A stretch of 26,730 nucleotides of DNA from a virus, in the IMG/VR virus record IMGVR_UViG_3300033992_001141, positions 1-26,730 of that record; one strand, given 5' to 3'. The position numbers and the translations under genes are program-made. The notes under the pieces were generated by a model, which saw only the letters and a program-made list of their open reading frames with translations, made no database searches and was not told the origin of the DNA. Positions 18,755 through 26,277 of the stretch are shown here, piece by piece (position 1 is the first letter of the stretch; every line of letters starts with the position of its first letter).

Positions 18755-19867
18755 TCACAATAAAAGAACCGGCTTGTTTACATATTTCAAAAAGCCTTTT
18801 GATTTTGATACCGGCCATATAACAAAGTTTGTGGGTTTTCTATCGGATACAATCTTATATGTTTTTTTATAATTTTTAAATTTTTCGTATGTTTCCAGCG
18901 AATCTACTTGTAAATCTTCTCTGTATATAGATTCGTGCTTATCATCCTCTATACAAAAAAACAAAAATTTAAAATCGTTGCACAATTCTATATCACATTC
19001 GGTCCATTCAACTTCCACGGTATATTCTGTTTTACTTTCGGTTTTTAAAACTGGTTCTGGTGGTTTATTATATTCATATGAAAAAAGTTTCAATTCTTCT
19101 CTCCAATTGCATTTGTATAAATCAAACCAATCGGGTTTGTTGAGACAACACAAATCGAAAATTTTCTCGTCACTACCAACATACCCTTGGTCCAGAACAT
19201 ATTTAACCTGTCGGCAAAATTCTTCTTGCAATGGAGAAATCAAATCTCTGTGCAAAAAGAATATGGTTCCTTTCAACAATCTCATTTGAGACATAACATG
19301 CAGCTTTATATCTATCGTGTGATTTTTTATATTGTCATTTATACAAAAGAATTTTATTTTGTCATTGCGAAGCATCAATTTACATGGGTCTGGCCATTTC
19401 TTAATATTCTCAATTTCATTTGCTCCTCGGATAAAACCGGCGTCAACCCAACCAAAATATTCGGTGTTGAATGGATTTATTTCTGACACTTGTTGTAAAT
19501 AATTTACCTTATTGAACATCAGCACATTATACAAAGGTTTTGTCATCTCGGGAACGTGCTTATGATGTACCGCCATTTGGAATTCGTCGGAGTACATCAA
19601 TTTTTCCAATTTATCATTAAACATTTTATATGATGGTAATTGATCTATTGTCGTCTCTTTTATTATGGTTTTGCTGAGATCTGGGTCTATTTTTACTCTC
19701 GTTTTCAGTATCCTATCAACAAATTTTCTCTCGGTCAGGATGTATAAATTTATATCAAGCGATAGTAAATTATCAAACCAGTGCATATACATTTCATTAG
19801 ACACAGTAAAAGCGTCCCAATTTTTTCTGTCTATATCAAAATAAAATGTACAAAATGTTATATCCAT
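18755..19867 (-). CDS. HtrL/YibB-like glycosyltransferase with C-terminal accessory module
   Basis: A 370-residue protein, last of the glycosyltransferase operon. The N terminus DITFCTFYFDIDRKNW and FGWVDAGFIRG (about 138-148), preceded by NPFNTEYF, fit the HtrL/YibB (WlaTC) family of putative sugar transferases. D142 is the likely nucleotide-sugar/metal contact. After about residue 285 comes an ~80-residue module ending TNFVIWPVSKSKGFLKYV, also found at the C terminus of the GlcNAc-transferase-like protein at 22019-23302. The start at ATG 19867 is chosen, because the longer frame would use a TTG at 19873. It overlaps the preceding gene by ten bases. The acceptor is unknown. Confidence 0.75.
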   Translation of the reverse strand: MDITFCTFYFDIDRKNWDAFTVSNEMYMHWFDNLLSLDINLYILTERKFVDRILKTRVKIDPDLSKTIIKETTIDQLPSYKMFNDKLEKLMYSDEFQMAVHHKHVPEMTKPLYNVLMFNKVNYLQQVSEINPFNTEYFGWVDAGFIRGANEIENIKKWPDPCKLMLRNDKIKFFCINDNIKNHTIDIKLHVMSQMRLLKGTIFFLHRDLISPLQEEFCRQVKYVLDQGYVGSDEKIFDLCCLNKPDWFDLYKCNWREELKLFSYEYNKPPEPVLKTESKTEYTVEVEWTECDIELCNDFKFLFFCIEDDKHESIYREDLQVDSLETYEKFKNYKKTYKIVSDRKPTNFVIWPVSKSKGFLKYVNKPVLLL

Positions 19868-23589: not shown

Positions 23590-26277
23590 TTATCCTACGC
23601 AAGATGGCGAGCCAGCGCCCCGCACACATGCGGTGTGGGCATTTGCTCCGCCCGTTGTCAAATAACTCGCATCGTCTTCAGTACCAACAACGGGTCCGAC
23701 AACATAACTTTCGGATGCTCCATCGCACCTAGTATATACTCCAGTATTGATACTATAATTACTATACGAGTATACAGGATTCTCCGGGTCGCTGTCGTCA
23801 TACACCTTCGTTTGCGACCAAACCCAAGTTTGTTCGTGACACGGTATTGCTGTTGGCGTTGGTTCTGGTTCAGTTGGCGTTGGTTCTGGTTCAGTTGGCG
23901 TTGGTTCTGGTTCAGTTGGCGTTGGCGCTGGTTCAGTTGCCGTTGGCGTTGGCGCTGGTTCAGTTGCCGTTGGCGTTGGCGCTGGTTCAGTTGCCGTTGG
24001 CGTTGGCGCTGGTTCAGTTGCCGTTGGCGTTGGTGTCGGCTGCGGTGTTGCCGTTGGCGTTGGTGTTGGTTGCGGTGTTGCCGTTGGGGTCGGCGTCGGC
24101 GTCGGTGTCGGTGTCGGCGTTGGTGCACCGGTCCCAAAATTGTAAGTTTGTTCTGCACTTAGATAAGTTCCAGTATTAGTTGTAACGCTTGCTCTGGCTC
24201 TGATCCAATATGGAGGAGTTGCTACTATTCCAGATTGAGCATTTGTAACAAGCAAGTAATCGCTGTTTGCGCCTACATTACTCGGAGGAGCGACATTTGT
24301 TCCAATTGTAACATATCCCGCACCGGCAAGACCGGCTTCCGATGCGGCGGACTTCAATTGTATTGTATGTGAACTAAATGTTTGTGAGTATGCATATGCC
24401 GAAGAATGCACATCAAATCTACCAGGAGATGATTCTATTATAAATCCAACATCTACGAATGGTGTCAGTGATGTAGCCGTTGGGGTAGGAATTGGCGTTG
24501 CCGTTGGCGTTGGTGTTGGTGTTGCTGTTGGTCCAACGCTGGTTGCCGTCGGAATTGGCATCGGTGTTGCTGTTGGTCCAACGCTGGTTGCCGTTGGCGT
24601 TGGTGTCGGTGTTGCTGTTGGTCCAACGCTGGTTGCCGTTGGTGTAGGCGTAGGCGTTGCTGTCGGTCCAACGCTGGTTGCTGTCGGTGTAGGCGTTGCT
24701 GTAGGCGTCGGCGTCGGCGTCGCTGTAGGCGTCGGTGTAGGCGTCGGCGTTGGCGCAGGTGCCAACGACATGGTCATAAACGCACTTCCGGTTGCATCAT
24801 AGTTTGCAGCAAATAGCTGAACATAGTATGTATTTGCAACGGCGGATGGAGTTCCAGAAATCAACCCAGTATAATTGTTCAATGAAAGACCAGTTGGTAA
24901 ATTGGATGCACTATAAATCAGTGGATAATTTGTAGCTAAAATTTGATAACTATATGGTATAGTATTTGTTGCAGTTTCATACAAACTACTTATGATCACA
25001 GGTGCTGGCGGTGAATATGTTGATGGACCATAGTCAGAAATATATCCTTCAAAACTAAATGTACATGGTGCCGCACTTGAACTATAAAACACATAAATTG
25101 ATTTATCTGTATGTGCTACACCCAATTCTAACAATTGCAGATTGTTTCTGCTGTAAATTGCATTGGTTAATGGAACTCTGTTATTGTTCCATGAATGTAT
25201 TCCACTTGCACCAACTGGTGCAACAGATGATGTTGATCCAATTGACAACAATGGAGAACCAGTTGAATAAACAAATGCATCTGTCAAAATATAATTATCT
25301 GGAAGAATATCTCTTTTGTTTCCATTACCAAGATAACTGGATGTTCCATCACTCTTGAATCTCAAACTAAATTCTTTATCTGGATTGCTTGCTCTTGCAC
25401 CAGACACTGGTAATAAAATATGATTTGTTCCTTTTGAATCCAACCATTGAGTTGGTCCTGGATTTAAATTTGGCGAAGTATAAGAAGCAATCAATGTTGT
25501 ATCTGAATTATTTACGCCACTATAAAAAATGCTTTTAACTTTGTTGGCGGTCAATTCTGTATTGAATACATGCGCTTCATATACAATACAATCAATATTG
25601 AATGCAGTAGAATGTCCATTGCCCATAACCACATATGATGATGAAATTGGTGTTGCAGAACCACTCAATGTTCCAATCCATGTGCTGTTCAAATACAACT
25701 TCAAAGTACCAGAAGAATTTCTGGTTAGAACTGCTTCAAAAACTTTGTCTTCGTAATCACACATAAAATCGGGTACTTCAATTCTTTTCTCAGTAATTCC
25801 GTCGTATGTATAACCAATCAAATCATTATTTTCCATTCCAATATATGCGGCTTGACTAGCAGACACAGCTAGACTACCGGACACAAGTGTTTCTTGAGAT
25901 TCTCCTATACCAAAAATTGCACGAGATACTGGTGGATCGGGGTACATGGACGACGGAATAAATGCACGAACCATCAAACTAAATTCTGTTCCAACTTCTG
26001 GAAATTCTCCATAACAACGCAAATTCAAATCTGACGCTGGTGCAATATATTGATCAAACACAAGTCCATTGGCGGATTGATAGCCATGCATTGGCGTGAA
26101 TACTTCCAAGAATCCTCCAGATACAACATATGCAGCCAAATCACCGGCAGAAATTGCTTTGGTTTCACCCGTGGCACAAACCGTGGTTTCAGACACATCC
26201 ACTATAGGAATCAAATCGCCATAAACAAGCTGGCTACCACTTACTCTGCGAAGTTGAGATGTTTTCTGATTAGACAT
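23590..26277 (-). CDS. Modular tail fibre/adhesin with LamG-like, Ig-like and Thr/Pro mucin-like linkers, 895 aa
   Basis: An 895-residue protein. The N terminus (1-55, KTSQLRRVSGSQLVYGDLIP then TKAISAGDLAAYVV) resembles the virion-attachment end of phage fibres. Residues about 70-275 form a LamG-like jelly-roll, and about 425-505 an Ig/cadherin-like domain (ASNLPTGLSLNNYTGLISGT is the putative-Ig signature). Linker 1 (about 505-600) repeats TATSVGPTATPTPTP. A domain follows at about 602-716. Linker 2 (about 717-809) repeats EPAPTPTAT and EPEPTPT. The C-terminal 85 residues hold four Cys. This looks like a receptor-binding or surface-sticking fibre whose Thr/Pro linkers resemble O-glycosylated mucin stalks. 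An ATATTTATA box lies 13 bases before the ATG. It precedes the glycosyltransferase operon. Confidence 0.8.
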   Translation of the reverse strand: MSNQKTSQLRRVSGSQLVYGDLIPIVDVSETTVCATGETKAISAGDLAAYVVSGGFLEVFTPMHGYQSANGLVFDQYIAPASDLNLRCYGEFPEVGTEFSLMVRAFIPSSMYPDPPVSRAIFGIGESQETLVSGSLAVSASQAAYIGMENNDLIGYTYDGITEKRIEVPDFMCDYEDKVFEAVLTRNSSGTLKLYLNSTWIGTLSGSATPISSSYVVMGNGHSTAFNIDCIVYEAHVFNTELTANKVKSIFYSGVNNSDTTLIASYTSPNLNPGPTQWLDSKGTNHILLPVSGARASNPDKEFSLRFKSDGTSSYLGNGNKRDILPDNYILTDAFVYSTGSPLLSIGSTSSVAPVGASGIHSWNNNRVPLTNAIYSRNNLQLLELGVAHTDKSIYVFYSSSAAPCTFSFEGYISDYGPSTYSPPAPVIISSLYETATNTIPYSYQILATNYPLIYSASNLPTGLSLNNYTGLISGTPSAVANTYYVQLFAANYDATGSAFMTMSLAPAPTPTPTPTPTATPTPTPTATPTPTATSVGPTATPTPTPTATSVGPTATPTPTPTATSVGPTATPMPIPTATSVGPTATPTPTPTATPIPTPTATSLTPFVDVGFIIESSPGRFDVHSSAYAYSQTFSSHTIQLKSAASEAGLAGAGYVTIGTNVAPPSNVGANSDYLLVTNAQSGIVATPPYWIRARASVTTNTGTYLSAEQTYNFGTGAPTPTPTPTPTPTPTATPQPTPTPTATPQPTPTPTATEPAPTPTATEPAPTPTATEPAPTPTATEPAPTPTEPEPTPTEPEPTPTEPEPTPTAIPCHEQTWVWSQTKVYDDSDPENPVYSYSNYSINTGVYTRCDGASESYVVGPVVGTEDDASYLTTGGANAHTACVRGAGSPSCVG
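23851..24126 (-). repeat. Coding repeats of fibre linker 2 (27-nt and 21-nt units)
   Basis: Four 27-base units with GGCGCTGGTTCAG start at 23924, 23951, 23978 and 24005 (EPAPTPTAT). Three 21-base units with GGTTCTGG start at 23861, 23882 and 23903 (EPEPTPT). Near-identity of units suggests recent expansion by slippage or recombination. Confidence 0.9.
24475..24760 (-). repeat. Coding repeats of fibre linker 1 (45-nt units)
   Basis: GTCCAACGCTGGTTGC recurs at 24531, 24576, 24621 and 24666, an exact 45-base period encoding TATSVGPTATPTPTP four times. Shorter GT(T/C/A)GGC hexamer runs flank the array on both sides. Units differ mainly at synonymous positions, plus one MPIP variant. Confidence 0.9.

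Follow-up and report, generated by a model that had tools for sequence, protein, structure and literature searches.

A putative phage-encoded O-glycosylation pathway of mucin type beside a fibre gene with Thr/Pro-rich linkers

We analysed a 26.7-kb record of an uncultured virus (IMGVR_UViG_3300033992_001141; 26,730 nucleotides, hereafter the window), in which a fibre gene with two long Thr/Pro linkers is followed by five closely coupled genes, the first of which encodes a member of glycosyltransferase (GT) family 60 (GT60). All genes of the region lie on the minus strand, in the order phoH (its end), fibre, the five coupled genes, hsp20, a predicted membrane protein and peptide deformylase. 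Open reading frames (ORFs) come from a simple longest-ORF caller, not a gene finder, and a membrane-helix-like segment is one picked up by a 19-residue hydropathy window, not by a dedicated predictor. The fibre ORF (23590-26277) encodes 895 amino acids (aa). The operon (18755-23302) consists of ORFs 22019-23302, 21449-22015, 20637-21452, 19858-20673 and 18755-19873; genes 1 and 2 are 3 bp apart and the later pairs overlap by 4, 37 and 10 bp, the last figure assuming the likely ATG start at 19867 for the final gene, as in its homologues. A scan of the minus strand from 18000 to 26730 found no terminator-like site. An earlier, sequence-only reading of this DNA had described both the two linkers and the five coupled genes, and both are indeed present. 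It had also placed the fibre directly upstream of the operon: the fibre is next along the strand, but a gap of 287 bp, with an 83-aa ORF inside, separates it from the GT60 gene. The features are as follows.

24787-26277, minus strand: N-terminal part of the fibre, aa 1-497, with the strongest conservation within the lineage (ORF and relatives).
24454-24786, minus strand: Thr/Pro linker 1, aa 498-608, proposed O-glycan acceptor (ORF composition, DNA repeats).
24142-24453, minus strand: fibre domain between the linkers, aa 609-712 (ORF).
23872-24141, minus strand: Thr/Pro linker 2, aa 713-802, proposed O-glycan acceptor (ORF composition, DNA repeats).
23590-23871, minus strand: fibre C-terminal domain, aa 803-895 plus stop (ORF).
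23378-23629, minus strand: 83-aa ORF between the fibre and GT60 genes, overlapping the fibre end (ORF).
22019-23302, minus strand: GT60-like polypeptide N-acetylhexosamine (HexNAc)-transferase, proposed primer of Thr O-glycans (PF11397, phrog_24687, AF2 model).
22022-22300, minus strand: C-terminal module of the GT60 enzyme, aa 335-427, common to HtrL (sequence comparison).
21449-22015, minus strand: DUF3431 protein, a variable cassette member (PF11913, 4e-13).
20637-21452, minus strand: probable GT, phrog_1579-like (phage-GT match at 7.5e-6 and a sub-cut-off Pfam match).
19858-20673, minus strand: probable GT of GT-A fold with an invariant DDD at aa 124-126 (model and homologues).
18755-19867, minus strand: HtrL/YibB-type protein, final operon gene (PF09612, 1.8e-30; ATG start inferred from homologues).
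About 18782-19024, minus strand: HtrL copy of the C-terminal module (sequence comparison).

The product of 22019-23302 matches PF11397 (GT60) at 1.2e-72 (245.8 bits, cut-off 21) and phrog_24687 at 2e-173. GT60 enzymes start mucin-type glycans in protists with N-acetylglucosamine (GlcNAc) (PMC8724618; this and the other papers given by number are cited from excerpts). In Trypanosoma cruzi this first GlcNAc sits on Thr (PMC3769586), and Gnt1, also of the GT60 family, modifies a hydroxyproline of Skp1 (PMC6939170). The resemblance to enzymes acting on Thr-rich mucins or hydroxyproline, seen previously in the bare letters, is borne out by the family match and by the predicted fold. The AlphaFold (AF2) model of the enzyme, with a mean predicted local distance difference test score (pLDDT) of 93.6, has the GT-A fold of the polypeptide N-acetylgalactosamine (GalNAc)-transferases (ppGalNAcTs), which initiate animal mucin-type O-glycans: the first 29 rows of the fold comparison are all ppGalNAcTs (Z 19.0-22.7), and the following row scores 17.6. 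A sequence search of solved structures returned none up to E 1 and one chance-level match up to E 10. An alignment of 47 enzymes, 35-82% identical to that of the window, shows no variation at D92, S93, H94, E205 and H229; we take D92-S93-H94 to be the DxH metal motif, and E205 and H229 to be the conserved acidic and His residues. The protein is modelled as a polypeptide HexNAc-transferase, which is its predicted activity. From about residue 340 the model continues into a small mixed alpha/beta module, barely covered by the fold-match rows. Among 6192 ORFs from 447 loci (some overlapping, not dereplicated) and the window proteins, this module of about 90 residues turned up (E up to 1e-3) in no proteins other than GT60 enzymes and 11 of HtrL type, among them that of the window.

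The linkers of the fibre show as tandem arrays in the DNA. In relatives found with PhoH of the window lineage as seed, approximately aa 1-440 of the fibre are matched in 19 of 21 loci (about 49-97% identity), L034 and L040 being the ones without a match; in L007 the N-terminal part is 46% identical. This part has no Pfam or PHROG match up to E 0.1, tblastn found no phage relative of the fibre, and the one NCBIfam match, on a linker, is weak (1e-3, far below its cut-off). The domain between the linkers is partly common to the fibres of L034 and L038, and the last 85 aa are 98.8% identical in L003. Linkers of relatives vary in length and exact repeat and keep their Thr-Pro character; in L007, L033 and L036 the fibre homologue itself is free of such a stretch and the next gene has one. 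The 83-aa ORF is 96-100% identical in six close-relative loci; beyond these, the ORFs searched contain no match to it at E 0.01 or below.

The sequence-only reading had seen in the operon five GT-like genes of five families. This is broadly right, with uneven support: it is solid for GT60 and probable for 20637-21452 and 19858-20673, the last gene belongs to HtrL_YibB, a Pfam family of unknown function, and for the DUF3431 protein we found no sign of a GT. The 19858-20673 product has a GT-A-type fold in its model, at moderate confidence (pLDDT 73), and no family match above chance. The fetched loci hold 11 homologues of 21449-22015 (six distinct rows) and 15 homologues each of 20637-21452 and 19858-20673, ten distinct rows each and from the identical ten loci, so that the latter two travel as a pair. 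This pair is also present in distant phages (L262, L272, L282, L300, L307 and L314). None of the five operon proteins has a membrane-helix-like segment; as a positive check, the same hydropathy scan scored three in the protein encoded at 16357-17901.

Co-occurrence of Thr/Pro fibres with such an operon in related phages had been named in the sequence-only reading as a comparative check; it came out positive from three seeds, namely PhoH of the window lineage, GT60 and HtrL, and an Ala-Pro control was without GT60. With PhoH, 21 of 22 loci show phoH, at least one Thr/Pro-rich gene, GT60 and variable genes, in that order; the remaining locus has a distant PhoH, and dereplication at 95% GT60 identity gives 14/14. 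In L034, L040 and L041 the same place is occupied by a distant GT60 (38-39% identity). The GT60 seed has at least 586 relatives in viral contigs, redundancy kept, of which the best 80 were used. For the analysis of gene offsets, 96 GT60 copies were reduced to 77, from 95 loci, by dropping ORFs below 75 aa, copies no longer than 330 aa and those at least 95% identical. A Thr/Pro-rich ORF lies at position -1 in 28/77 cases, at -2 in 18/72, at -3 in 9/64 and at -4 in 6/62; at -5 to -8 the count falls to 1-3 of 53-59, at 0 to +2 it is 0/77, and a lesser second peak appears downstream (6/74 at +5, 10/71 at +6). Random anchors in the same loci (2000 draws) gave on average 4.9 and at most 13 at offset -1, none reaching 28, and for a Thr/Pro gene within four genes upstream, observed in 41/77, on average 21 and at most 32. 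The adjacency of Thr/Pro genes and GT60 exceeds chance.

With their Thr/Pro stretches masked, the 59 Thr/Pro-bearing upstream proteins fall into 11 groups of 34, 11, 6 and eight singles, some of the latter perhaps short or fragmentary. Their linkers consist of 40.7% Thr, 23.4% Pro and 6.5% Ser, compared with 10.6% Thr and 9.0% Ser outside the linkers; the mask admitted Ser and Thr alike, so its choice of residues does not explain the low Ser. The HtrL seed yielded 80 loci, 57 after dereplication, of which 52 have GT60 and 48 of these 52 a Thr/Pro-rich gene as well. The five loci without GT60 are also without a Thr/Pro-rich gene. As a GT60-free control this seed failed, because four of these five loci end early and the queries came from GT60 loci. 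Bacterial loci (73 GT60 copies in 79) have Thr/Pro neighbours in 5/70 cases at -1, 5/67 at -2 and 4/60 at +3, and some of these contigs may be phage. In L065 and L070 (Paraburkholderia and Trinickia), proteins of 829 and 782 aa that contain an almost pure Thr-Pro stretch are encoded three to four genes away from GT60.

The association also holds when the search starts from the repeat itself. Among the viral-contig loci listed for DNA coding for (Thr-Pro)6, 12/120 have GT60, versus 0/120 listed for (Ala-Pro)6 (p = 3.7e-4; locus L153 is in both samples). The Ala-Pro sample is higher in GC content (median 0.51 versus 0.41), and below a GC of 0.5 the counts are 12/84 and 0/55. Behind the best 80 of the 120 listed Thr-Pro loci stand 31 records longer than 40 kb, of which ten encode PF11397; above 100 kb it is 6/6, one of them of the window lineage. 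Controls were 29 Ala-Pro-seeded records (>35 kb) and 11 seeded with the terminase large subunit (TerL), whose relatives were mostly short contigs so that the longer 11 of 80 were used; 1/40 of these controls (G049) encodes PF11397, and 0/8 above 100 kb. Nine GT60 records without a Thr/Pro gene within four genes upstream were read at the protein level: all six longer than 100 kb have clear Thr/Pro-rich ORFs elsewhere, a 71-kb record has a weak one, and two have none (78 kb; 60 of 64 kb read). A stricter pattern at the DNA level, [Thr/Ser]-Pro five times over, was given up as too insensitive, being found in only 9/38 GT60 records with a nearby Thr/Pro gene; its 6/37 (4/35 once L257 and L262 are set aside, each having a Thr/Pro gene four genes upstream) is therefore not evidence of absence. 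Protein-level reading and the shorter pattern PTPTP took its place, and the latter is found in 15/28 GT60 records without a Thr/Pro gene within four genes upstream (17/30 including L257 and L262).

Isolates show the same pattern. PTPTP-coding DNA has 50 matches in Xanthomonas phage XacN1 and 29 in Stenotrophomonas phage RAS14, both of which encode GT60, and among isolates without GT60 one match in Mel-JY01 and none in immuto and RaK2. The XacN1 enzyme, ORF334, is 49.8% identical to that of the window, and 260 kb of its genome, read through, contain 17 Thr/Pro-rich ORF rows, of which a few are truncated where the pieces end, with ORF325 near the GT cluster. Proteomics of XacN1 reported at least two glycoproteins (PMC5852040).

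Finally, we compared the genes that lie between GT60 and HtrL. In 169 loci where GT60 is followed by HtrL (not dereplicated, some records entering via several loci), the intervening genes belong to 109 families and form 72 distinct sets, mostly of one to five genes. None of the 510 cassette proteins has a membrane-helix-like segment by the hydropathy window, and hence there is no candidate flippase or polymerase among them. This arrangement, with the first enzyme kept, the middle ones swapped and no candidate for a flippase or polymerase, suits a glycan that is built up step by step on protein in the cytoplasm. Lipid-linked phage seroconversion of the Gtr type needs a membrane flippase and a polytopic transferase beside the GT, and O-glycosylation by oligosaccharyltransferases of the PglL/PMT type uses a multi-pass membrane transferase; neither kind of membrane part was found among the five operon and 510 cassette proteins. 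The cassette pattern misfits the lipid-linked route unless its membrane parts are encoded elsewhere in the genome.

We consider it probable, at roughly three chances in four, that the operon is a phage-encoded soluble pathway of mucin-type O-glycosylation for the phage's own Thr/Pro fibre stalks. That the phage decorates its own fibre had been proposed from the sequence and is supported by comparison and fold; sugar identity, order of action, acceptor and biological purpose are what we infer. The GT60 enzyme would add a first HexNAc, most likely GlcNAc from host UDP-GlcNAc, to linker threonines. Products of the variable middle genes, together with the HtrL-type enzyme, would then extend the glycan one sugar at a time, presumably with neither lipid carrier nor flippase and before or during virion assembly, and so dense a glycan coat would make the stalks stiffer and shield them. 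Since the extenders are swapped as cassettes and the primer is constant, the surface glycan would differ between related phages in the manner of serotypes.

Several results weigh against this interpretation. No glycan has to date been observed on any such Thr/Pro fibre, and we found no evidence for GT identity of the DUF3431 protein. The HtrL queries and the PhoH seed themselves derive from GT60 loci, at least three of the 12 Thr-Pro loci with GT60 (L129, L192 and L227) belong to the window lineage (70-72% identity), and Thr/Pro labels are clustered on the tree of GT60 (14 changes versus 25.8 when shuffled), which makes many of the loci interdependent. GT60 is also missing from some Thr/Pro-rich phage fragments. 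One of nine GT60-negative controls read through (G070) has real Thr/Pro-rich ORFs, the raw threshold having flagged three of the nine, two of which are by eye not Thr/Pro repeats (0.60, 0.63). PTPTP occurs at least once in 14/40 controls and five times or more in four of them (G041, G069 and G075 without GT60, G049 with it). It is missing from 13 of the 28 GT60 records in which none of the four genes upstream of GT60 is Thr/Pro-rich; 12 of the 13 do not exceed 78 kb, and G009, the remaining one, has Thr/Pro-rich ORFs at the protein level. The GT60 tree contains a 12-row clade that has no Thr/Pro gene within four genes upstream, all from records of 78 kb or less: PTPTP is found elsewhere in three of 11 of its records (21, 20 and 3 matches) and in none of the other eight, and the twelfth record, L291, has no match to the stricter pattern. 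Moreover, in the excerpts of the XacN1 paper the main text does not tie the glycoproteins to named proteins, and its authors saw no tail fibres by electron microscopy and reported no tail-fibre homologues (PMC5852040).

Taken as a whole, the GT60 family extends beyond Thr/Pro fibres, and this clade favours a related explanation, in which GT60 acts on virion proteins, mainly on other Thr/Ser-rich ones, with Thr/Pro stalks as one acceptor among several and the window fibre perhaps only partly modified. Thr/Ser-rich, proline-poor proteins at L287, L294, L310 and L313 point the same way, as does a Thr/Pro tail on the membrane protein encoded at 16357-17901. On the other side stand the six records above 100 kb, among the nine read, which are without an adjacent upstream Thr/Pro gene and all have Thr/Pro-rich ORFs elsewhere. 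We regard this explanation as a real possibility, if an unlikely one.

Distinctly less probable is that the GTs modify the host envelope, lipopolysaccharide (LPS) or capsule, thereby blocking superinfection or changing the surface, and neighbour the fibre because both belong to a common host-range region. HtrL/YibB genes belong to enterobacterial LPS gene regions, and the turnover of the cassettes resembles that of O-antigen loci. Yet the model of the first enzyme is that of a polypeptide transferase, the cassette proteins include no candidate flippase or polymerase, which could lie elsewhere in the genomes, and both the contrast between Thr-Pro and Ala-Pro and the peak at -1 point to the chemistry of the linker rather than to fibres generally. 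A survey, as excerpted, reads the GT clusters of jumbo phages, above all those of cyanophages, as changing host polysaccharide (PMC7824862), which speaks for this alternative and against the pathway we favour.

We give little credence to the idea that the linkers are neutral low-complexity spacers and that their co-occurrence with GT60 reflects common ancestry within one large aquatic phage group. The clustering of Thr/Pro labels on the GT60 tree is what such ancestry would produce, and near-kin inflate the counts. Against it are the several masked groups of Thr/Pro upstream proteins (though eight of the 11 are single), the three seeds, some bacterial contigs with Thr/Pro-rich neighbours, and the isolates XacN1 and RAS14, which are of another lineage and show the same pattern in contrast to the GT60-negative RaK2. 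That the operon glycosylates modified bases of phage DNA, which phage GTs are capable of (PMC12619734), is very improbable given the polypeptide-transferase fold and the position next to fibres.

The soluble pathway for Thr/Pro stalks that we favour would belong to phage virion glycosylation, with a primer of mucin type. Its first enzyme shares the PF11397 match with the alpha-GlcNAc-transferases of CAZy family GT60 (Dictyostelium Gnt2, T. cruzi TcOGNT-2 and Skp1 Gnt1), from which it differs in being phage-encoded, in having no membrane-helix-like segment and in a C-terminal module common with the operon's last enzyme; its acceptor is putative. The animal ppGalNAcTs (GT27) are the nearest solved folds (Z up to 22.7) at only 11-14% identity, the expected donor of the window enzyme is GlcNAc, not GalNAc, and GT60 enzymes differ from GT27 in lacking the ricin-like domain (PMC8724618). 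Caldicellulosiruptor CelA likewise has Pro-Thr linkers, whose O-glycosylation depends on a GT encoded in that locus and gives protection against proteases, but it is a cellular cellulase for which a single GT is named and which carries galactose disaccharides (PMC7142884). In mycobacteriophages glycans sit on virion proteins too (Freeman 2023, as cited in PMC12619734), there on capsid and tail-tube C-termini (PMC12619734), whereas the window combines putative Thr/Pro stalks, a GT60 primer and swapped cassettes. A further parallel is XacN1, with ORF334 in a cluster with an HtrL-type protein and a GT9, many Thr/Pro-rich ORFs and reported glycoproteins (PMC5852040); its GT60 is not directly beside a Thr/Pro-rich gene, and the cluster includes a carbamoyltransferase.

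We lean, with some reserve, towards a broader view: a widespread, so far undescribed system in which a constant GT60 primer for Thr/Pro stalks is combined with freely exchanged extender cassettes, giving strain-specific glycan coats in many large aquatic phages, and in which the C-terminal module common to the first and, in the window lineage, the last enzyme may dock both on the same stalk. If so, many phages (the at least 586 GT60-encoding stretches, redundancy kept) would make mucin-like glycoproteins through a soluble pathway in the bacterial cytoplasm. This would be a compact system for mucin-type O-glycosylation in bacteria, would explain the Thr/Pro stalks and would add a new layer to phage surface diversity. 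Among the papers listed by searches of an open-licence library, none describes GT60 together with Thr/Pro fibres in phages; this is weak evidence that such a report does not exist.

Downstream of the operon, the following features contain a further Thr/Pro stretch, which the sequence-only reading had not named.

16357-17901, minus strand: predicted membrane protein, three membrane-helix-like segments, tail rich in Thr, Pro and Glu (ORF and hydropathy).
16507-16629, minus strand: Thr/Pro-rich C-terminal tail of this protein, a possible further acceptor (ORF composition).

The position of this gene is kept in the close relatives L003 and L005, and the sequence of the tail varies. The lineage's relatives include the 297-kb contig L043, so that the window phage is probably large; the terminase of L043 is T4-like, with its top similarity (52%) to Microcystis phage Mel-JY01. 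In L036, of the same lineage, a 283-aa protein (3297-4148) contains a long PTDAPTSAPT-type repeat. XacN1 has six adjacent Thr/Pro-rich genes (record L756, 124048-133104), and in it the carbamoyltransferase adjoins GT60 (L766). Near the GT60 gene of L313, a protein of 1214 aa (2928-6572) has a stretch with 70% Thr/Ser and little proline, possibly another type of acceptor.

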